Positions 5,493 through 19,881 of a stretch of 64,000 bases of DNA are shown here, in pieces. The stretch is from NCBI RefSeq assembly GCF_036699995.1, contig NZ_CP144906.1:5488292-5552291 (forward strand). The letters run 5' to 3'. Every line of letters starts with the position of its first letter. Within the stretch, counting starts at the first letter, position 1. The notes beneath the pieces were generated by a model. It worked only from the letters and a program-made list of their open reading frames with translations. It did no database searches and was not told the origin of the DNA. The position numbers and the translations under genes were made by a program. This DNA is from Clostridium beijerinckii. GTDB lineage: Bacteria > Bacillota > Clostridia > Clostridiales > Clostridiaceae.

Positions 5493-5667
5493 ATAAGTTC
5501 CTCTAATTTTTTTACTAATCTATAATGCTTTTATTTTGTCACTTATACTAAATTATATTTAATACCTTATATACTTTTATTGAGATATAATTAATTATAT
5601 AATTGTTCTATATACAACTTATGTATACAGTTACTAATCACTTATTTAAAAAGGGGGCTAAAATTTA

Positions 5668-6087
5668 ATGGATGAAAAATATGTAGTTATTATCCAGTGC
5701 GACATTGCTCATAACCGTTGTAGTGGATTTGCCTGTACAAATGCCTTTTACAACAGAGATGACGTTTTTAAAAATTACAACGAATCAACCAGATATATTT
5801 CCTTCACCTGTGGAGGATGCTGTGGAAAAAGTATTGCTACTAAATTAGAACATCTCTCGAAAAAACTTAAGTTAAAAAATAACATAAATAAAGAAGATGT
5901 TGTGATACATCTATCATCTTGCATGACAAATGATAATTATCATTATGATAGATGTCCTCATCTAGATTATATTAAATCTATTGTATCCAAAAAAGGATAT
6001 AATAAAGTTATAGAAGGTTCTTATATAAGTAAGAATGCTGAGAAAAAAAGAGCCAATGGCAGTTATAACTGCTATGACTCAATATAA
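5668..6087 (+). CDS. CGGC domain protein
   Basis: A 139-residue cytoplasmic protein with a strong SD (AAAGGGGG). It is cysteine-rich: IIQCDIAHNRCSG near the N-terminus, the family motif FTCGGCCGKS around residues 48-57, and HLSSCM and DRCPHL later. This matches the small CGGC family, whose members are thought to bind metal through these cysteines; the function is not established. It is monocistronic and convergent with the DUF4474 gene. Confidence 0.8.
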   Translation: MDEKYVVIIQCDIAHNRCSGFACTNAFYNRDDVFKNYNESTRYISFTCGGCCGKSIATKLEHLSKKLKLKNNINKEDVVIHLSSCMTNDNYHYDRCPHLDYIKSIVSKKGYNKVIEGSYISKNAEKKRANGSYNCYDSI

Positions 6088-7156: not shown

Positions 7157-7207
7157 TTGACAATTACAAAAAATTGTACTATGATAAATTATACCAAACG
7201 GGTATAC
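7157..7207 (+). promoter_or_regulatory. rrf2 promoter with operator at the start site
   Basis: TTGACA (7157-7162), 17-base spacer, TATGAT (7180-7185). The dyad TATACC-AAACG-GGTATA lies at 7190-7206, over the expected transcription start, so a protein bound here would block initiation. The same dyad occurs before cooS and the fusion gene, pointing to autoregulation by the Rrf2 protein. Confidence 0.75.
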
Positions 7208-7224
7208 TTTAAGGAGTAAATTTT

Positions 7225-7638
7225 ATGAATATTAATCAAGAATCTGATTACGCATTTAGAATAATACTTATGCTATCCAAAGAAGGTTTAGATAACAAAC
7301 TTGATGCAAAATCTCTATCTGAAAAAGGAAATATTCCTCTTAGATTTTTATTAAAACTAACTAGAAAGTTAACTCAATCAGGAATATTAAAGTCTTATAG
7401 AGGTGTTAATGGTGGTTATGCTATAACTCGGGAGCCTAAAGATATAACCTTAAAAGATGTGGTTGAAGCTATACAAGGTCCAATTATTGTGACCAGATGT
7501 GTTTACGATGGCAAGGCTTGTAGTGCAAATAAAGCTGGTCACTGTTCTATACACAAGGCTTTATACAATATTCAAAATACAATGATAAATGAACTAGAAA
7601 AGGTTAACTTTGATAAACTAAAGAATGATCCATGGTAA
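7225..7638 (+). CDS. Rrf2 family Fe-S type transcriptional regulator
   Basis: 137-residue winged-helix regulator. The N-terminal half is the classic Rrf2 HTH (SDYAFRIILML, then IPLRFLLKLTRKL, then the wing YRGVNGGYAI). Three cysteines, Cys92, Cys99 and Cys107, follow in the dimerisation region, in the place where IscR and NsrR bind a [2Fe-2S] or [4Fe-4S] cluster. SD AAGGAG precedes the ATG at 7225. It sits directly before cooS on the same strand, and its own promoter carries the operator shared with cooS and with the dehydrogenase fusion operon. I infer that it represses all three and senses NO, O2 or cluster state. It is not safely assignable to IscR or NsrR. Confidence 0.88.
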   Translation: MNINQESDYAFRIILMLSKEGLDNKLDAKSLSEKGNIPLRFLLKLTRKLTQSGILKSYRGVNGGYAITREPKDITLKDVVEAIQGPIIVTRCVYDGKACSANKAGHCSIHKALYNIQNTMINELEKVNFDKLKNDPW

Positions 7639-7653
7639 CTTTATACATGTAAA

Positions 7654-7680
7654 TATAAGAGGCGAAAGCCTTTTATATTT
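7654..7680 (+). terminator. Short terminator or attenuator after rrf2
   Basis: TATAAGAGGC-GAAA-GCCTTTTATA, a GAAA tetraloop hairpin followed by a T-rich run. It separates rrf2 from the cooS promoter. Confidence 0.7.
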
Positions 7681-7681
7681 T

Positions 7682-7710
7682 CTTAAAACTATACCTCTTT
7701 AGTATACTTT
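7682..7710 (+). promoter_or_regulatory. cooS operator in a weak promoter
   Basis: The dyad CTATACC-TCTTT-AGTATAC lies at 7689-7707. A possible -35 (CTTAAA, 7682-7687) and -10 (TACTTT, 7705-7710) with a 17-base spacer flank it in the same geometry as at the fusion gene promoter, where the operator also fills the spacer. The promoter elements are weak matches; the operator match is strong. Confidence 0.6.
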
Positions 7711-7750
7711 TGGTTGAATATTAAATATAAAATTAAAGGAGATGATCAAT

Positions 7751-9625
7751 ATGTCAATGTGCACATCAGCAGATTGCAAATTATGTGAATTTTTATCATC
7801 AAAAGAAGATCTAGAAACATCATTCAACAGAGTTGAAACACAAAAAGCAAAATGTAAATTCGGAAAAGAAGGAGTCTGTTGCAAACTCTGCTCGAATGGT
7901 CCATGTAAGATAACACCTAAATCACCTAAAGGTGTATGTGGTGCGGATGCTGATACTATCGTATCAAGAAACTTTTTAAGAGCGATAGCAGCAGGTTCCG
8001 CATGTTACCTTCACGTAGTGGAAACTACAGCAAGAAACCTTAAAGATATTGGTGAAGGAAAAGGTAGTTTAAAAATAAAAAGCCCTGAAACATTGGATAA
8101 GCTTGCTAAAATATTTGATATTGTTGAATCAGATATAAATGCCAAAGCAATTAAAGTAGCTGATGAAGTTCTTAGGGATTTATATAAACCAAGATTTGAG
8201 AAAATGGAATTGGTAGAGAAATTAGCTTATGCTCCAAGATATCATAAGTGGAAGGAATTAAATATTTTACCTGGCGGTGCAAAATCTGAAGTTTTTGATG
8301 CTCTAGTAAAAACTTCAACAAATCTAAATAGTGATCCTGTAGATATGCTGCTTAATTCACTTCAACTTGGAATTGCTACTGGAATATATGGTCTAGTGTT
8401 AACTAACCTTTTAAATGATGTTATGCTAGGTGCTCCAAAAATCAGACAAGCTAAAGTTGGCTTTAGAGTAATAGATGAGGATTATATCAACATAATGATT
8501 ACAGGTCATCAGCATTCTGATATTGCACATCTTCAAGATAAATTAATTGATGAGAATGTCGCAAAAAGAGCAATGGAATTAGGTGCAAAGGGCTTTAGAT
8601 TAGTTGGCTGTACATGCGTAGGCCAAGATCTACAGTTAAGAGGAGAGCATTATACTGAAGTTTTTTCAGGCCATGCTGGAAATAATTATACAAGTGAAGC
8701 CGTACTCGCAACTGGTGCTATAGATTTAATTGTCTCAGAATTTAACTGTACAATACCAGGACTTGAACCTGTAGCTGAGAAATTTAATGTAAAAACTATC
8801 TGTATAGATGATGTTGCTAAGAAGAAAAATGCTGAATATATAAATTTTGATATGAGAAACGCTGAAGAAATTAGTGAAAAGATCATTTGCGAAGCATTAG
8901 AAAGCTATAAGAACAGAAGAAATAACGTCACAATAGACATTCCTAAGGATCATGGACATGATGATGTTGTAACTGGTGTTAGTGAAGGATCTTTAAAAGA
9001 GTTCCTAGGTGGAAATTGGAACGGTCTTATTGACTTAATAGCAAAAGGAAAAATCAAAGGTATAGCTGGTGTTGTAGGCTGTTCCAACTTAACAGCTAAA
9101 GGACATGATGTATTTACTGTTGAGCTAACTAAAGAATTAATAAAGAGAGATATTTTAGTTCTTTCAGCCGGATGTTCTTCTGGAGGCCTTGAAAATGTTG
9201 GTCTTATGTCTCCTGGAGCAGCTGATCTTGCAGGTGATAATCTAAGAGATGTGTGCAAATCCCTAGGCATTCCACCAGTATTAAACTTTGGTCCATGTCT
9301 AGCTATTGGAAGATTAGAAATGGTAGCAACTGAACTTGCTGAAAACTTGGGTATAGATATACCTCAACTTCCACTTGTATTATCAGCACCACAATGGCTT
9401 GAAGAGCAAGCATTAGCCGATGCTGCATTTGGACTATCATTAGGTCTGCCACTACATGTTGCAATATCTCCTTTTATAGATGGAAGTGAAGTTGTCACTA
9501 AAGTTTTAAAAGAAGATTTAGTTAATATAACAGGCGGTAAGCTTATTGTTCAAGAAGATGTAATTAAAGCTGCTGATGAGTTAGAGGAGATTATCGAAAA
9601 TAGAAGAATAGGATTAAACATATAA
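7751..9625 (+). CDS. cooS: Divergent Ni-Fe-S carbon monoxide dehydrogenase catalytic subunit (CooS-like)
   Basis: 624 residues, normal CooS length. Cys35, Cys43, Cys44, Cys47, Cys52 and Cys63 match the D- and B-cluster ligands. Candidate C-cluster ligands are present in order: TGHQHSD, VGCTCVGQD, NCTIPG, VVGCSNL, SAGCSSGGL and FGPCLAIG. The surroundings are unlike well-studied enzymes: the His ladder near residue 90 reads GSACYLHVVETTA, and the segment that holds the catalytic Lys reads PQWLEEQAL, with no Lys at the aligned place. There is an extra N-terminal CX4CX2C. No cooF, cooC, acs or hydrogenase genes are nearby. I chose ATG 7751 because the SD AAGGAG is too close to ATG 7742. Cytoplasmic. 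CO oxidation is possible but unproven. Confidence 0.85.
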   Translation: MSMCTSADCKLCEFLSSKEDLETSFNRVETQKAKCKFGKEGVCCKLCSNGPCKITPKSPKGVCGADADTIVSRNFLRAIAAGSACYLHVVETTARNLKDIGEGKGSLKIKSPETLDKLAKIFDIVESDINAKAIKVADEVLRDLYKPRFEKMELVEKLAYAPRYHKWKELNILPGGAKSEVFDALVKTSTNLNSDPVDMLLNSLQLGIATGIYGLVLTNLLNDVMLGAPKIRQAKVGFRVIDEDYINIMITGHQHSDIAHLQDKLIDENVAKRAMELGAKGFRLVGCTCVGQDLQLRGEHYTEVFSGHAGNNYTSEAVLATGAIDLIVSEFNCTIPGLEPVAEKFNVKTICIDDVAKKKNAEYINFDMRNAEEISEKIICEALESYKNRRNNVTIDIPKDHGHDDVVTGVSEGSLKEFLGGNWNGLIDLIAKGKIKGIAGVVGCSNLTAKGHDVFTVELTKELIKRDILVLSAGCSSGGLENVGLMSPGAADLAGDNLRDVCKSLGIPPVLNFGPCLAIGRLEMVATELAENLGIDIPQLPLVLSAPQWLEEQALADAAFGLSLGLPLHVAISPFIDGSEVVTKVLKEDLVNITGGKLIVQEDVIKAADELEEIIENRRIGLNI

Positions 9626-9672
9626 GAACCCATTAAATATAGGGAATAAGAAACTATATTTTTAATATCTAT

Positions 9673-9710
9673 AATGAATCTGGATAATAACACATTCAGA
9701 TTCATTTTTT
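9673..9710 (+). terminator. Terminator after cooS
   Basis: AATGAATCTG pairs with CAGATTCATT across a loop of about 15 bases, followed by a T-run. Confidence 0.85.
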
Positions 9711-9824
9711 CATTGAAATACATATTATGAATTAACTTCTTTATCCTATATAATTGATTTTTTAATAATATGTCGCAACATTATGAACCTTCAAGCTAAT
9801 CTTAAGTACTATTATCTTTATTAT

Positions 9825-9869
9825 AATTTTAATCAACTCGTTATTATAATTTACGAGTTGATTAAAATT
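9825..9869 (-). terminator. Terminator of the fusion/flavodiiron operon
   Basis: A perfect stem AATTTTAATCAACTCGT / ACGAGTTGATTAAAATT with an 11-base loop, just after the flavodiiron stop codon on the minus strand. Confidence 0.8.
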
Positions 9870-9884
9870 CATATCTTTTCTGTA

Positions 9885-11084
9885 TTATTTCATTGATTCA
9901 ATAATGCTATCAGCAATAGATTCCATTAAATCCTCATCGCTTTCTTTCATGCTAGAATTAATTGAAATTTCATTATCCAAAATAGTCATATCTTTCATTT
10001 CTTCTAATAATTCACGCATTAATTTACCTGATTGAGGCGCCCATGATCCATTTTCAATAATAGCAAAAGTACGTTTTTGAAGGTTTAATGCCTTCATATC
10101 CATTATATAGTCAAGCATTGGTGGATAAATCTTTAAATTATAAGTAACTGATGCTAACACAACGTGACTATATTTAAATGTTTCAGAAATCAGATATGAA
10201 ACATGAGTTTTGGAAACATCATACATAACTACATTGGTAATACCCTTCTTAACCAATCTTGTTGCTAACTCATTTGCTGCTGCTTCTGTATTACCATACA
10301 TTGTTCCATAAACAATCATCACGCCCTTTTCCTCAGGTGTGTAGCTACTCCATTTATCGTACTTATCAAGTAAATATCCAAAATCATTACGCCATACTGG
10401 TCCATGTAACGGACAGATAATCTTAATATCTATAGTGCCTGCCTTTTTTAAAAGAGCCTGAACATGAGGCCCATATTTACCTACAATATTTGTGTAATAC
10501 CTTCTAGCATCATCAATCCAATCACGATCAAAATTTACTTCATCGTTAAATAGCTTTCCATCTAATGCACCAAATGAACCAAAAGCATCAGCTGAGAATA
10601 ATACTCCATTTGTAGTATCATATGTTACCATAGCCTCTGGCCAATGTACCATAGGGGCAGAAACAAATACAACATTATGCTTTCCAAATGACATAGTATC
10701 TCCCTCTTTGACTTGCTCTACCTTATCTTCTATTTGGAACCCGAACTGATGCATAAATAAAAATGCCTTCTCAGTACATATTATCTTTACATTAGGATAG
10801 CGGATAACAATTTCTTCAATACACGCTGCATGATCAGGTTCCATATGGTTAATGACCATGTAATCTAAGTCTCTATCTCCTAAAACTCCCTTAATATTCT
10901 CAAGAAATTGTCTGCAAATTGACCAATCTACAGTATCAAATAGCACTGTCTTTTCATCTAAAAGTAAATAAGAATTATAAGAAACACCTCTTGGAATAGG
11001 ATGAACATTTTCAAAAAGAGCTAGACGACGATCATTTCCTCCTATCCAATAAAGATCTTCTGTTACCTCTCTAACACAATACAT
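9885..11084 (-). CDS. Flavodiiron protein (O2/NO reductase)
   Basis: 399 residues: a metallo-beta-lactamase-like diiron domain (1-250) and a flavodoxin domain (250-399). All diiron ligands are present: His80, Glu82, Asp84, His85 in HMEPDH, then His147, Asp166 and His227. The FMN loop is YGTMYGNTE. The enzyme reduces O2 to water or NO to N2O in the cytoplasm and normally takes electrons from rubredoxin. The start is ATG 11084 with SD AGGAGGA; an earlier in-frame start at 11105 lies upstream of the SD. It is 42 bases after the rubredoxin-containing fusion gene on the same strand and without a terminator between, so the two should be co-transcribed under the TATACC-N6-GTATAC operators. Confidence 0.95.
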   Translation of the reverse strand: MYCVREVTEDLYWIGGNDRRLALFENVHPIPRGVSYNSYLLLDEKTVLFDTVDWSICRQFLENIKGVLGDRDLDYMVINHMEPDHAACIEEIVIRYPNVKIICTEKAFLFMHQFGFQIEDKVEQVKEGDTMSFGKHNVVFVSAPMVHWPEAMVTYDTTNGVLFSADAFGSFGALDGKLFNDEVNFDRDWIDDARRYYTNIVGKYGPHVQALLKKAGTIDIKIICPLHGPVWRNDFGYLLDKYDKWSSYTPEEKGVMIVYGTMYGNTEAAANELATRLVKKGITNVVMYDVSKTHVSYLISETFKYSHVVLASVTYNLKIYPPMLDYIMDMKALNLQKRTFAIIENGSWAPQSGKLMRELLEEMKDMTILDNEISINSSMKESDEDLMESIADSIIESMK

Positions 11085-11126
11085 AGCTAATCCTCCTTTA
11101 AACAAAAAATTTATTTATTACCTGCT

Positions 11127-13031
11127 TTAAACTTCTATAAACATATCTTTTTCTTCACCACAAGCTGGGCAAGTCCACTCTTCAGGTAAATTTTCAAAAA
11201 GTGTTCCTGGGTTTACTTCGCCTTCTAAATCACCTACTCCTGGATCATATTCATAACCGCATCCATTACATACATAATGTTTCCAAGTTGGAGTGACTTT
11301 CTTTGGAATAGCTCTCTTCATCTTTTTCATTGGTGGAGCCTCTTTCTTCGGTTCACCATTGTCTAAAGCCTCAATAAGTAGAGGTAGTATTTCCATCAAA
11401 TCACCAACTATACCGTAATCTGCGTTTTTGAAAATCTTTGCATTAGGGTTTATATTAATTGCAACAATTGTAGAAGCATCCTTTATACCTTTTAAATGTT
11501 GACCTGCACCTGAAATACCACATGCAATATAAAGGTTTCCTTTAAATTTTTGCCCTGACATACCAACGTAACGATCAATTGGAACATATTTTAAAGTTTC
11601 AGCTACTGGTCTAGAAGAACCTATTGCTGCACCAGCCTGAACTGCAAGCTTTTCTATAAGATGCATATTTTCCTTTTCTCCTATACCTTGGCCCACACTA
11701 ACTACTCTCTCCGCCTTGCTTATTGGAGTATCTATAGGAATTCCTACAGAAAAATCATATCCATCCTTCTTAAGAGCTTCTACAAGAGAATTTACTTTCT
11801 CTTCAGGTGTACCATCTTTATAAATTACCTTCTTACGATATCCTGTTGCAGGTTCCCTCGAAGTTTTTGCTACACTCTCTGTTTTTGGCATTTTTCCTAT
11901 AATATTAGCGGCTATAACAACACGCTGGATTTCATTAGTTCCTTCATATATAGTGCAGATTTTAGCATCTCTATAGGCACGCTCAACTTCCATACCTTTA
12001 AGGTATCCGCTTCCCCCAAAGATTTGAAGAGCATCGTTGACAATCTCAAGACAAACATCAGAAGCATATTGTTTAGCCATTGCTGCTTCCATGCTGTAGT
12101 GCTCATGATTTCCTTTAAGCTCTGCTGCACTGTAAATAAGGAATCTTGCTGCTCTAAGTTTTGTGGCCATATCTGCTAATTTAAAAGCGATTATTTGTTG
12201 CTGGCAAATAGGTTTACCAAATTGAACTCTTTCTTTTGAATACTCTAAGGCATTCTCATAAGCACCTTGTGCTATTCCTAGAGCTTGGGCAGCAATACCG
12301 ATACGTCCACCATCTAATGTAGACATAGCAATTTTGAAACCATCGCCTTCTTTACCTAATAAATTTTCCTTAGGAACTTTTACATCATTAAAAATAAGCT
12401 CTGCAGTAGCTGATGAACGAATTCCCATCTTATCATAATGCTTACCAAAACTAAAACCTTCTGATCCCTTTTCAACGATAAATGCACTAATGCCTCGTGT
12501 ACCAATATTTGGGGTAGTCACTGCAAAAACAATATAAATATCTGCTTCGCCACCATTAGTGATAAATATTTTCTCACCATTTAAGATATAATAATCTCCT
12601 TCTAGTACAGCAGTTGTTTCTGTTCCTCCTGCATCACTACCTGCATTTTCCTCAGTCAAACCAAATGCTCCAAGCTTTTCACCCTTTGCTAATGGTACTA
12701 AATATTTTTGTTTTTGCTCCTCATTTCCAAAAGCTGCAATTGGATATGTTCCTAATGATGTATGTGCAGATAAGATTACTCCAGTCCCGCCATCAACTCT
12801 TGATAATTCCTCGACAGCTATCGCATAGCTAATCACATCTAAGCCAGCTCCTCCATACTCCTTTGAATACGGAATACCCATCACTCCCATATCAGCTAGC
12901 TTTTGAACTACTTCCGAAGGGAATTTATTTTCTTGATCCAACATAAATGCAATAGGTTTAACTTCCTCTTCAGCAAATTCTCTTATTTTTGTTCTCAAAT
13001 TTTCATGTTGTTCTGTAGTTTTGAAAAACAT
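11127..13031 (-). CDS. Acyl-CoA dehydrogenase - EtfA FAD domain - rubredoxin fusion
   Basis: 634 residues in three parts. Residues 1 to about 380 are a complete acyl-CoA dehydrogenase, with the substrate/FAD loops ([14 protein letters not shown]) and the catalytic Glu in [10 protein letters not shown]. Residues about 430-556 are the C-terminal FAD-binding domain of the ETF alpha subunit ([38 protein letters not shown]). Residues 580-634 are a rubredoxin with the iron-binding pairs Cys588/Cys591 and Cys621/Cys624. No ETF beta partner or ETF alpha N-terminal domain is visible. The layout suggests internal electron flow from acyl-CoA FAD to ETF FAD to rubredoxin iron, and then to the flavodiiron protein of the next gene. 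SD AAAGGGAGG precedes the start. Confidence 0.95.
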
Positions 13032-13117
13032 AAATACACCTCCCTTTAATTATACGGTTTCACTAATGTAATTCTATGAAATCTGTAAAACCATATTCCC
13101 AATCATATTCCTTAAAT

Positions 13118-13169
13118 GTATACCTAAACCGTATACATTTATTGTATACCTCTAAGGTATACTTTTCAA
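13118..13169 (-). promoter_or_regulatory. Fusion operon promoter with two Rrf2-type operators
   Basis: On the minus strand TTGAAA (13164-13169) and TACAAT (13141-13146) are 17 bases apart. Operator GTATACC-TTAGA-GGTATAC (13144-13162, a perfect dyad) fills the spacer, and a second copy (13118-13136) covers the expected start site. Centres are 26 bases apart, so two dimers could bind nearly in phase on the DNA. Confidence 0.8.
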
Positions 13170-18447: not shown

Positions 18448-19881
18448 ATGATTAATAAGTTTCTTCTTGAAACTGTAATTTATCTTATTGAAATTATAAA
18501 GTATCTCATGACTTTGCTGGTTGGCAAAAACTTGCTTAAAAGCATTTCGGACGAACCTGTTAAGAAAGAATACCGAAAGCTTCAAGTAGATGATCAACCA
18601 ATCTTTGATGTTCCCGAAAAACTTAACTATAAGCTTCTAATAGCTGAATATGAGTTTAAGCACGGCAAAGAATTTGCTCCTGTGAAACCTCGCAAAAACA
18701 AAGCGTTAGCTCCTAAGGATGTTATCTGTCCTAAGTGTGGTGCTCCACATACCTATCTTTACGATAATAACGGAGGCCGAGGACAATATCTTTGCAAAGT
18801 CTGTGATACCACATTCAATCCTAAAAATTACTATCAGAAATCCATAGTGTTAAGATGTCCTCACTGCAGTAAAACACTTGAAAGAATCAAGGCGCGTAAG
18901 GATTTCTACGTTTATAAGTGTAAGAATGATAATTGCTCTTTTTACCAAAATAATCTTAAATCAATGACAAAATCTGAAAAACAAGATTTTAAGAAGAATC
19001 CTGGTAAGTTCAAAGTTAGATACATATTTAGAGATTTCACTTTTGACTTTAAGCCACTTTCTAAAGAAAGTCCGGTAAAATCAAAGGTTTCTCTTCCAAA
19101 CATTATGATTTCTTCTTACACCTTAGGACTCATTCTAACTTACTACGTTAACTACGGTTTATCTTCCAGAAAGACAGCTGCATTGCTTAAAGATATTCAT
19201 GATATTAAAATATCTCATCAAGCAATTTTAAACTATGTTAATGCCGTTTCAATTGTAGTTAAGCCATTTATAGATAACTACGATTATAAACTTTCTGACT
19301 CTTTCTGCGGCGATGAAACCTACATAAAAGTTAACGGTAAGTGGAACTATATTTTCTTCTTTTTTGATGCTGTTAAAAAGATTATTCTATCTTACAGAGT
19401 ATCACCACATAGAGATACCGAAACGGCTGTAAAAGCCATCGATGATGTTCTAAGTAAGTTAAAAGAAATACCTGAAGATCTTAATCTTATAACTGATGGT
19501 AACCCTATATATCTTCTTGCACAGCACTTCTTTGCAAGCCATAGTATAAAATTCGATGTTACTCAAGTTATAGGCTTAACCAATAAAGATGAAGTTTCAA
19601 AAGAATATAGGCCATTGAAGCAAATTATTGAACGTCTTAACCGAACCTTTAAAGGCAATTATAGAGCTACTACTGGCTTCGGAAGTCCTAACGGGTCGGT
19701 TGCATTTGTAACTATGTTTGTGGCATACTTTAACTTTCTAAGACCACATTCTGCCCTTGAAGGCAAAACTCCTGTAATCCTTGAAGAGTTAGAGTCAATG
19801 TCCAACATGCCTACTAGATGGTGCAAATTTATTGAACTATCTCAAGACTTTGTTCTAAATAACTGTACAATAACTGCCTAA
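18448..19881 (+). CDS. DDE transposase with N-terminal zinc ribbons (IS6/IS240-like catalytic domain)
   Basis: 477 residues. Residues about 92-130 hold a zinc ribbon (CPKCGAPHTY, then YLCKVC) and residues about 140-170 a second one (CPHCSKTL, then YKCKNDNC). An HTH-like segment follows (LSSRKTAALLKDIHDIKISH), then the RNase H-like catalytic domain with Asp in GDETYIKV, Asp in ITDGNPIY and Glu in QIIERLNRTFKGN. The RPHSALEGKTP end is usual for IS6-type enzymes. SD AAAGGAGG precedes the ATG. No frameshift or stop is present, so the element may be active. Plain IS6 enzymes are about 230 residues, so the long N-terminus is distinctive. Confidence 0.85.
   Translation: MINKFLLETVIYLIEIIKYLMTLLVGKNLLKSISDEPVKKEYRKLQVDDQPIFDVPEKLNYKLLIAEYEFKHGKEFAPVKPRKNKALAPKDVICPKCGAPHTYLYDNNGGRGQYLCKVCDTTFNPKNYYQKSIVLRCPHCSKTLERIKARKDFYVYKCKNDNCSFYQNNLKSMTKSEKQDFKKNPGKFKVRYIFRDFTFDFKPLSKESPVKSKVSLPNIMISSYTLGLILTYYVNYGLSSRKTAALLKDIHDIKISHQAILNYVNAVSIVVKPFIDNYDYKLSDSFCGDETYIKVNGKWNYIFFFFDAVKKIILSYRVSPHRDTETAVKAIDDVLSKLKEIPEDLNLITDGNPIYLLAQHFFASHSIKFDVTQVIGLTNKDEVSKEYRPLKQIIERLNRTFKGNYRATTGFGSPNGSVAFVTMFVAYFNFLRPHSALEGKTPVILEELESMSNMPTRWCKFIELSQDFVLNNCTITA

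Follow-up and report, generated by a model that had tools for sequence, protein, structure and literature searches.

Regulators of the Rrf2 family have been reported next to both kinds of genes studied here. A preprint of July 2026 (PMC13404960) places the NsrR-like Rrf2 protein C0FN14 next to the genes of butyryl-CoA oxygen oxidoreductase (BOOR), an O2-reducing enzyme, in Lachnospiraceae and Oscillospiraceae. Genes of clade C nickel-dependent carbon monoxide dehydrogenase (Ni-CODH) have been found with a COG1959 (NsrR/IscR-like) neighbour, sometimes together with CooF, FNOR or rubrerythrin (Inoue 2019, PMC6344411; Geelhoed 2015, PMC4703632), and an Rrf2-type gene lies beside cooS in acetogenic clostridia (PMC4703632). 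We analyzed a 64-kb stretch of the Clostridium beijerinckii chromosome (NZ_CP144906.1, positions 5,488,292 to 5,552,291; hereafter the window), in which an rrf2 gene, a Ni-CODH gene (cooS) and a BOOR-type operon (acd-fprA) carry copies of one dyad, GTATACC-N5-GGTATAC, at their promoters. We concluded that they form a conserved small regulon; what is new is their shared predicted operator, the reliance of that operator on rrf2, and the link of a probable O2 reductase to a clade C CODH.

Like the present locus, that of C0FN14 places an Rrf2 protein with three cysteines and Asp8 beside an acyl-CoA dehydrogenase (ACD)-electron transfer flavoprotein (ETF)-rubredoxin fusion and a flavodiiron protein, and its proposed logic runs from an oxidized cluster through release to induction (PMC13404960). 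Compared by description, our locus differs in its defined operator, in predicted action in trans on unlinked genes and in a CODH that shares the switch; operator, promoter, binding site and CODH are not mentioned in the main text of that preprint. The BOOR of Fusobacterium nucleatum likewise joins Bcd, the C-terminal domain of EtfA and rubredoxin in one fusion protein, and its operon also encodes a class A flavodiiron protein (PMC12288474); Rrf2 has 0 occurrences in that BOOR review. The published clade C CODH/Rrf2 loci share with ours the group C-1 residues and the Rrf2-type neighbour, but were described as a neighbourhood, and we found no operator and no link to BOOR in those accounts (PMC6344411, PMC4703632). 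In Clostridium acetobutylicum, PerR represses fprA1 and fprA2 (PMC3828012); there, too, a flavodiiron O2 reductase is under an oxidant-sensing repressor, but one of another family. The sequence-only reading of this DNA had not known the combination as described, which holds in part. The Rrf2-CODH (2015/2019) and Rrf2-BOOR (2026 preprint) pairs were known as neighbourhoods, whereas our literature search, which did not reach most subscription papers and regulon databases, turned up neither the operator nor a joint control of the two targets nor the possible exchange of Rrf2 for PerR discussed below.

The pattern TATACC-N6-GTATAC had five exact matches at four places in the window (Table 1), the most upstream acd place also matching on the minus strand as 13144-13161. 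All four places lie at promoters with constant spacing and fall within 6 kb, and no further exact copy was found anywhere in the window, so that the coordinates, the promoter positions and the lack of another full intergenic copy were all as first read. In 100 dinucleotide shuffles of the window, the mean number of matches was 0.01 and the largest 1. The fuller dyad GTATACC-N5-GGTATAC, first named as the best one, is exact only at the upstream acd-fprA site; the other sites have one or two mismatches, including an intermediate dyad at acd that was absent from the earlier list. Upstream of acd, GTATAC occurs four times at a 13-bp period.

Across the 5.55-Mb genome we counted six exact matches, five of them in the rrf2-cooS-acd locus. 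A reversed control pattern was equally frequent (six times), and at two or fewer mismatches the control outnumbered the dyad (21 places against 13), so that single weak dyad matches mean little. Since the control turns up at least as often as the bare pattern, we relied on conservation. The genome-wide scan proposed with the sequence-only reading was thus favourable for the concentration at one locus and unfavourable for rarity. The control count is what an over-interpreted AT-rich palindrome would give; the clustering in the window, the fixed 13/26-bp phase and the contrast among acd sites given below (46/61 versus 0/22) leave chance a negligible probability. It is the clustering of the pattern in the locus, rather than its frequency in the genome, that is not due to chance.

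Conservation was scored with cut-offs of 3 mismatches to the dyad for acd and 4 for cooS. In a first comparison, 14 of 48 loci of rrf2 relatives had cooS or acd-fprA nearby, including those of C. bowmanii and of a deltaproteobacterial metagenome-assembled genome (MAG; L055). The dyad (up to 3 mismatches) lay just 5ʹ of rrf2 in 11 of the 14 and just 5ʹ of cooS or acd in 13; C. tagluense (L054), the sole one without the cooS site, had the site at rrf2. We then scanned 68 genomes of the genus (rrf2 at E ≤ 1e-20, cooS at E ≤ 1e-150, 400 bp upstream of acd). An rrf2 homologue was present in 17 and cooS in 15, all 15 among the 17. Among the 26 genomes with acd, the dyad with up to 3 mismatches preceded the gene in 15/15 with rrf2 and in 0/11 without it (best 4), and cooS had the site within 3 mismatches in 14 of 15 genomes and at 4 in the remaining one.

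The same dependence was seen in 206 Clostridiaceae genomes (rrf2 at E ≤ 1e-25, cooS and acd at E ≤ 1e-250), of which 84 had rrf2, 50 cooS and 82 acd. At the 83 acd loci, the dyad (up to 3 mismatches) was found in 46/61 from genomes with rrf2 and in 0/22 from genomes without it (Fisher 1.4e-10, without kinship correction). At the 52 cooS loci (250 bp), a site with up to 4 mismatches was found in 45/46 with rrf2 (37/46 at up to 3) versus 0/6 without it. The site was present at all 11 cooS loci of rrf2-bearing genomes where rrf2 is far off or on another contig; the single cooS locus of an rrf2-bearing genome that lacks a site, in G087, has the operator instead 5ʹ of its adjoining rrf2. At rrf2 itself, the dyad (up to 3 mismatches within 160 bp) preceded 46 of the 77 genes examined among 89 matches. 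At least one of acd and cooS accompanies rrf2 in 79 of the 84 genomes and both in 25; 60 have acd, and 35 have acd with no cooS match. This co-occurrence (Fisher below 1e-14, kinship ignored) was compared for rrf2 alone among possible regulator genes. An Rrf2-like gene lies directly 5ʹ of cooS in 35 of the 52 loci, one of them just 30% identical, and in nine genomes of genus g5 (G072, 73, 74, 75, 76, 77, 79, 80 and 83) no more than about 5 kb separates rrf2 from acd. Across the 46 acd promoters the operator consists of two GTATAC halves that enclose a weaker C and G; site pairs (up to 3 mismatches) are spaced solely by 13, 26 or 39 bp, the 26-bp pair occurring in 29 of the 46. The motif is thus found before orthologous genes, a check named at the outset, and in these genomes the predicted operator 5ʹ of cooS and acd depends on the presence of rrf2. 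The genes had been described as a local regulon; one operator does join rrf2, cooS and acd-fprA, but the regulon is not local, since the predicted sites would work in trans on unlinked genes.

Two side observations concern the distribution. In G022 (L171), two dyads 93 bp apart lie 5ʹ of cooS at a place where rrf2 appears to have been lost, and a distant rrf2 (50%) is found elsewhere in the genome. At the class level, beyond the family, a site was present in 3 of 19 acd loci, all from one genus (L393, L394, L395); it reads GTATACCG-N2-TTGGTGTAT, 2 mismatches, at about -91 of acd, and acd promoters alone were examined there. A plasmid search with the rrf2 region gave no match.

The regulator is a member of the Rrf2 family (TIGR00738, 101.6 bits, above the cut-off of 73.3), has the family domain along its full length and is 97% identical to its counterpart in C. 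beijerinckii HUN142. It carries ligand-type residues at Asp8 and at Cys92, Cys99 and Cys107 (C-x6-C-x7-C). Asp8 was kept in 77/77 homologues examined (of 89 matches) and the exact cysteine spacing in 75/77, which bears out the early description of three cysteines suited to an Fe-S cluster; the cysteines of G062 and G064 stand instead at 92, 99, 102 and 106. In ScNsrR, a [4Fe-4S] cluster is bound by three Cys together with the Asp8 that the other subunit contributes (PMC5411485). The same set of three Cys and Asp8 is found in our protein, and by analogy these residues would hold a [4Fe-4S] cluster as in NsrR. The curated models for NsrR (37.2 bits, cut-off 182), IscR (65 bits, cut-off 207.55) and CymR (58.4 bits, cut-off 195) scored below their cut-offs, as did the best-scoring equivalog, TIGR02944 for the SUF regulator (77.3 bits, cut-off 110.65). 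By curated models, the regulator is none of NsrR, IscR, RirA and CymR. It shares the Rrf2 domain with these four and Asp8 with three Cys with ScNsrR, but differs in the sub-cut-off scores, in the x6/x7 spacing of Cys and in its predicted operator, GTATACC-N5-GGTATAC, often paired at 26 bp.

The acd gene encodes an acyl-CoA dehydrogenase fused to the flavin adenine dinucleotide (FAD) domain of ETF-alpha and to rubredoxin, like the BCR subunit of BOOR. Both marks of a BOOR operon were found: the fusion of acyl-CoA dehydrogenase, EtfA C-terminal domain and rubredoxin, and an adjoining flavodiiron gene on the same strand. The start of fprA is probably the ATG at 11084, as orthologues begin with MYCVR. 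Flavodiiron proteins as a class are able to reduce NO (PMC12288474), whereas the F. nucleatum BOOR reduces O2 with butyryl-CoA and showed no NO reductase activity (PMC12288474), and Clostridioides difficile FdpA is O2-selective (PMC7482061). The early assignment to an O2/NO reductase with its likely electron donor is narrowed accordingly: O2 is favoured over NO because acd-fprA has the architecture of BOOR. By analogy, acd-fprA is probably an O2-removing enzyme pair that uses butyryl-CoA.

The gene first labelled CODH-like is a Ni-CODH, and its residues refine the label to clade C, structural group C-1 (compared with Table 2 of PMC6344411). CooS has an N-terminal C-x4-C-x2-C at residues 7-15 (numbered from 7742), a type II D-cluster and a full C-cluster, and Tyr and Gln replace the His/Lys acid-base pair of clades E and F. 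No CooF or FNOR gene adjoins cooS among the genes of the window. Surveys of 2019 and 2026 left the role of clade C CODH unsettled (PMC6344411, PMC13056359), the latter considering perhaps a regulatory or redox role. According to PMC13056359, C. autoethanogenum grew better once a clade C CODH was deleted, and Thermoanaerobacter kivui without its enzyme no longer grew on CO.

We scored acd promoters of genomes with and without rrf2 for a PerR-like box, with TTATAATNATTATAA taken as its consensus; such a box is weak in AT-rich DNA. The median shuffle fraction was 0.23 for acd promoters of genomes lacking rrf2 (n = 22) versus 0.83 for those with the dyad (n = 46; Mann-Whitney p = 1e-5), and the 15 acd promoters without a dyad in rrf2-bearing genomes were in between (0.63). 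An earlier comparison of 26 promoters had given p = 0.0035 after shuffle correction. This pattern is no more than a suggestion that acd tends to be under a PerR-like box instead of the Rrf2 dyad where rrf2 is missing, and it fits an O2-type signal.

The best explanation of these results as a whole is one Fe-S Rrf2 repressor regulon that is released by O2 or redox damage, to which we give a probability of about 0.8. Its parts are not equally firm. It is highly probable from the sequences that the dyad serves as operator for the Rrf2 protein of 7225-7638. A repressive action is very likely, because the sites sit in the -35/-10 spacer, on the -10 box or just past it. O2 or redox state is slightly favoured as the main signal, and the chances that CODH is part of the O2 response are about even. 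In this regulon, Rrf2 dimers on the dyads would block RNA polymerase at rrf2, cooS and acd-fprA, two dimers probably being bound 26 bp apart at acd. O2, another oxidant or possibly NO would damage the [4Fe-4S] cluster, and Rrf2 would leave the DNA. BOOR would then be made; electrons from butyryl-CoA would travel by way of FAD and rubredoxin to its flavodiiron protein, which would reduce O2 to water. The clade C CODH would be co-induced as a member of the same oxygen/redox response, and autoregulation of rrf2 would reset the switch.

Several observations weigh against this explanation. The mismatch cut-offs for acd and cooS were chosen once the distributions had been seen. At 15 of the 61 acd loci in rrf2-bearing genomes the site is missing, the closest dyads having 4 to 6 mismatches, and for 31 of 77 rrf2 genes no dyad comes within 3. 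Presence of rrf2 changes three times on the 27-row acd gene tree of the genus and ten times on the 83-row tree of the family (first 195 residues); only two independent pairs lie on supported branches, none of them contrary, which is too few for significance. Most single acd promoters are non-significant for the PerR-like box, which is weak in AT-rich DNA. The ligand set of Rrf2 is that of NsrR, leaving NO as a possible signal, and the loss of growth on CO in the T. kivui deletion runs counter to a stress role of all clade C CODHs (PMC13056359).

The NsrR-like ligands bear most directly on the nature of the signal. If the protein were a clostridial NsrR, BOOR and CODH would answer nitrosative stress, and Asp8 with three Cys as in ScNsrR (PMC5411485), together with the capacity of flavodiiron proteins as a class to reduce NO (PMC12288474), would be expected. 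We consider this unlikely, given the lack of NO reductase activity in the F. nucleatum BOOR (PMC12288474), the O2 selectivity of C. difficile FdpA (PMC7482061), the NsrR model score of 37.2 against a cut-off of 182, and the lean of acd promoters without rrf2 to a PerR-like box. It is somewhat less likely still that Rrf2 senses CO or the supply of nickel or Fe-S, with CODH as the primary target and BOOR recruited later. The arrangement at cooS speaks for such a sensor, as an Rrf2-like gene stands directly 5ʹ of it in 35/52 loci and in the deltaproteobacterial MAG, and 45/46 cooS loci of rrf2-bearing genomes have the site; so do an exact match in a Ni/Co transporter leader and the need of T. kivui for its clade C CODH during growth on CO (PMC13056359). 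The transporter site, however, is kept where no rrf2 was found and has an asymmetric centre with arms that covary as an RNA stem, 35 rrf2-bearing genomes have acd and no cooS match, and in this CODH the His/Lys pair of clades E and F is replaced by Tyr and Gln.

Site and gene are associated by co-occurrence, and supported branches show few independent changes; the same association would arise if the sites belonged to another regulator that travels with rrf2, rrf2 being merely a target. The adjacency of rrf2 to cooS in many loci and to acd-fprA in nine genomes of another genus argues against this, as does the site over the start of rrf2 itself, which is typical of autoregulation, and we regard it as very improbable.

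The features of the locus are collected in Table 1. A TTGACA box lies at a similar distance 5ʹ of many rrf2 orthologues, as judged by eye. Downstream of rrf2, a hairpin (-10.9 kcal/mol for 7655-7690) with a T-rich tail likely terminates rrf2 transcription, and therefore cooS probably has its own promoter; GGCGAAAGCC was found 5ʹ of cooS in 11 of 15 genus loci. The right half of the cooS operator overlaps a likely -10 box, TATACT (7703-7708). At acd, the perfect dyad fills the 17-bp spacer between -35 TTGAAA (13169-13164) and -10 TACAAT (13146-13141) and overlaps the first bases of the latter. We rejected a reading of the acd array as four independent sites, as the middle dyad is without the inner CC/GG and two operators 26 bp apart are simpler; the intermediate dyad is probably not a separate binding site.

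Table 1. Features of the rrf2-cooS-acd locus (window positions) and of the cbiM leader.
Feature	Position	Strand	Description
rrf2 promoter	7157..7185	+	-35 TTGACA 7157-7162, 17-bp spacer, -10 TATGAT 7180-7185
rrf2 operator (predicted)	7189..7207	+	TTATACCAAACGGGTATAC; 1 mismatch; between -10 box and ribosome-binding site
rrf2	7225..7638	+	137-aa Rrf2 regulator; PF02082 112.5 bits (cut-off 30)
Likely rrf2 terminator	7655..7676	+	GC hairpin, GAAA loop, then T-rich run
cooS operator (predicted)	7689..7707	+	CTATACCTCTTTAGTATAC; 2 mismatches
cooS	7751..9625	+	Ni-CODH, TIGR01702 838 bits; start probably 7751 rather than 7742
fprA	9885..11084	-	Flavodiiron protein, PF19583 + PF00258; second gene of BOOR-type operon
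acd	11127..13031	-	PF02771/02770/00441 + PF00766 + PF00301
Downstream acd-fprA operator (predicted)	13118..13136	-	1 mismatch; 26 bp from upstream operator
Intermediate acd dyad	13131..13149	-	2 mismatches; product of 13-bp half-site phase; without inner CC/GG
Upstream acd-fprA operator (predicted)	13144..13162	-	Perfect dyad
TATACC-N6-GTATAC, exact places	7190-7207, 7690-7707, 13119-13136, 13145-13162
cbiM leader element	L001:1252-1519, C1:4114746-4115013	-	5ʹ hairpin, ACGAGGG core, then terminator

Three further observations concern the surroundings. An inverted pair, TATACGGTTT and AAACCGTATA (13051-13060 and 13126-13135), connects the downstream operator of acd and its ribosome-binding region. 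AAACCGTAT is repeated 5ʹ of acd in several relatives of the genus, as seen by eye, and a leader hairpin is possible. An open reading frame (ORF) for an insertion sequence-type transposase (18448-19881, 477 aa, PF13610) lies near the locus.

The sixth exact match of the genome lies in the leader of the Ni/Co transporter gene cbiM (PF01891; G000:C1:4114995). In seven genomes this leader has a conserved ACGAGGG core and covarying arms, followed by a terminator, AACCACGAAGGTTGATTAC...GTGGTTTT. We rejected cbiM as one more target, attractive as it seemed for a Ni enzyme. The element persists with 2 mismatches in G046, a genome in which we found no rrf2, and decays to 4 mismatches in the rrf2-bearing G007 and G028. 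Its core is asymmetric, and its arms change together as those of an RNA stem do, with a conserved terminator behind them. The rejection is not absolute, as the site lies past the -10 box much as the rrf2 site does. The leader had no match in Rfam at gathering thresholds. An RNA hairpin accounts better for the match, and the leader is a candidate attenuator or riboswitch. The CGGC gene at 5668, with a 3-mismatch dyad at 5610, was also rejected, because its orthologue has no dyad at up to 3 mismatches in 4/4 loci (L020, L021, L022, L027).

The other seven 2-mismatch places in the same genome comprise three in ORFs and four between ORFs. One intergenic site, TTATACCCTAAGGGTATAA (L015:1501-1519, C1:3203393), lies between genes for L-lactate permease (PF02652) and a FAD-linked oxidase (PF02913) and is a possible weak further target. 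Beyond the three targets, the genus scan (30 stretches) gave matches in ORFs, the cbiM leader and one unconserved intergenic place in G020 (L097); G028 had 11 copies of one sequence, and the one inspected was an ISL3 transposase ORF. In the family, further sites were sought with a 13-base exact pattern, and L370-L375, L378-L380 and 12 more places outside the targets were inspected; of the 12, 10 were in ORFs and 2 between ORFs in single genomes. Most stringent off-target matches in related genomes are thus in coding sequence.

In genus g5, the operator also lies 5ʹ of a CoA-transferase A/B operon in G074 (L317:3920-3938) and G080 (L371:1500-1518), where that operon adjoins acd-fprA or rrf2. 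The G074 proteins score above cut-off as 3-oxoacid CoA-transferase subunits A and B, and that of G080 matches PF01144. The CoA-transferase is possibly a supplier of acyl-CoA, which would fit an O2 reductase fed by acyl-CoA. In G090 and G092 (L373, L374:1501-1519), a 1-mismatch dyad lies between the promoter and the start of a beta-propeller lipoprotein gene. These near-identical genomes have rrf2 and no acd site, and the dyad retains its half-sites around a different centre; the gene is a possible target in that genus. Outside the family, two genomes have a more distant Rrf2 gene 5ʹ of the BOOR operon, with another dyad, TGGA-N9-TCCA. This dyad was found in 4/19 loci, two of them at rrf2 or acd promoters (L382:2521-2537, L389:4945-4961), and is perhaps the operator of a second Rrf2 subgroup.

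Because one predicted operator is shared with a probable O2 reductase, the unsettled role of clade C CODH becomes testable in a non-pathogenic, industrial Clostridium, and the Rrf2-BOOR idea of PMC13404960 gains a concrete operator. On a more tentative reading, somewhat short of even odds, these CODHs would not be enzymes of growth on CO and would instead belong to an oxygen/redox emergency response, in which a dedicated Fe-S Rrf2 repressor would switch on the O2 reductase and a CODH with an altered active site at once. The CODH may then act on damage or on electron overflow from O2, and the Rrf2 switch would compete evolutionarily with PerR. Regulator gene and operator occur jointly across the family, a starting point for work on oxygen tolerance in butyrate producers.

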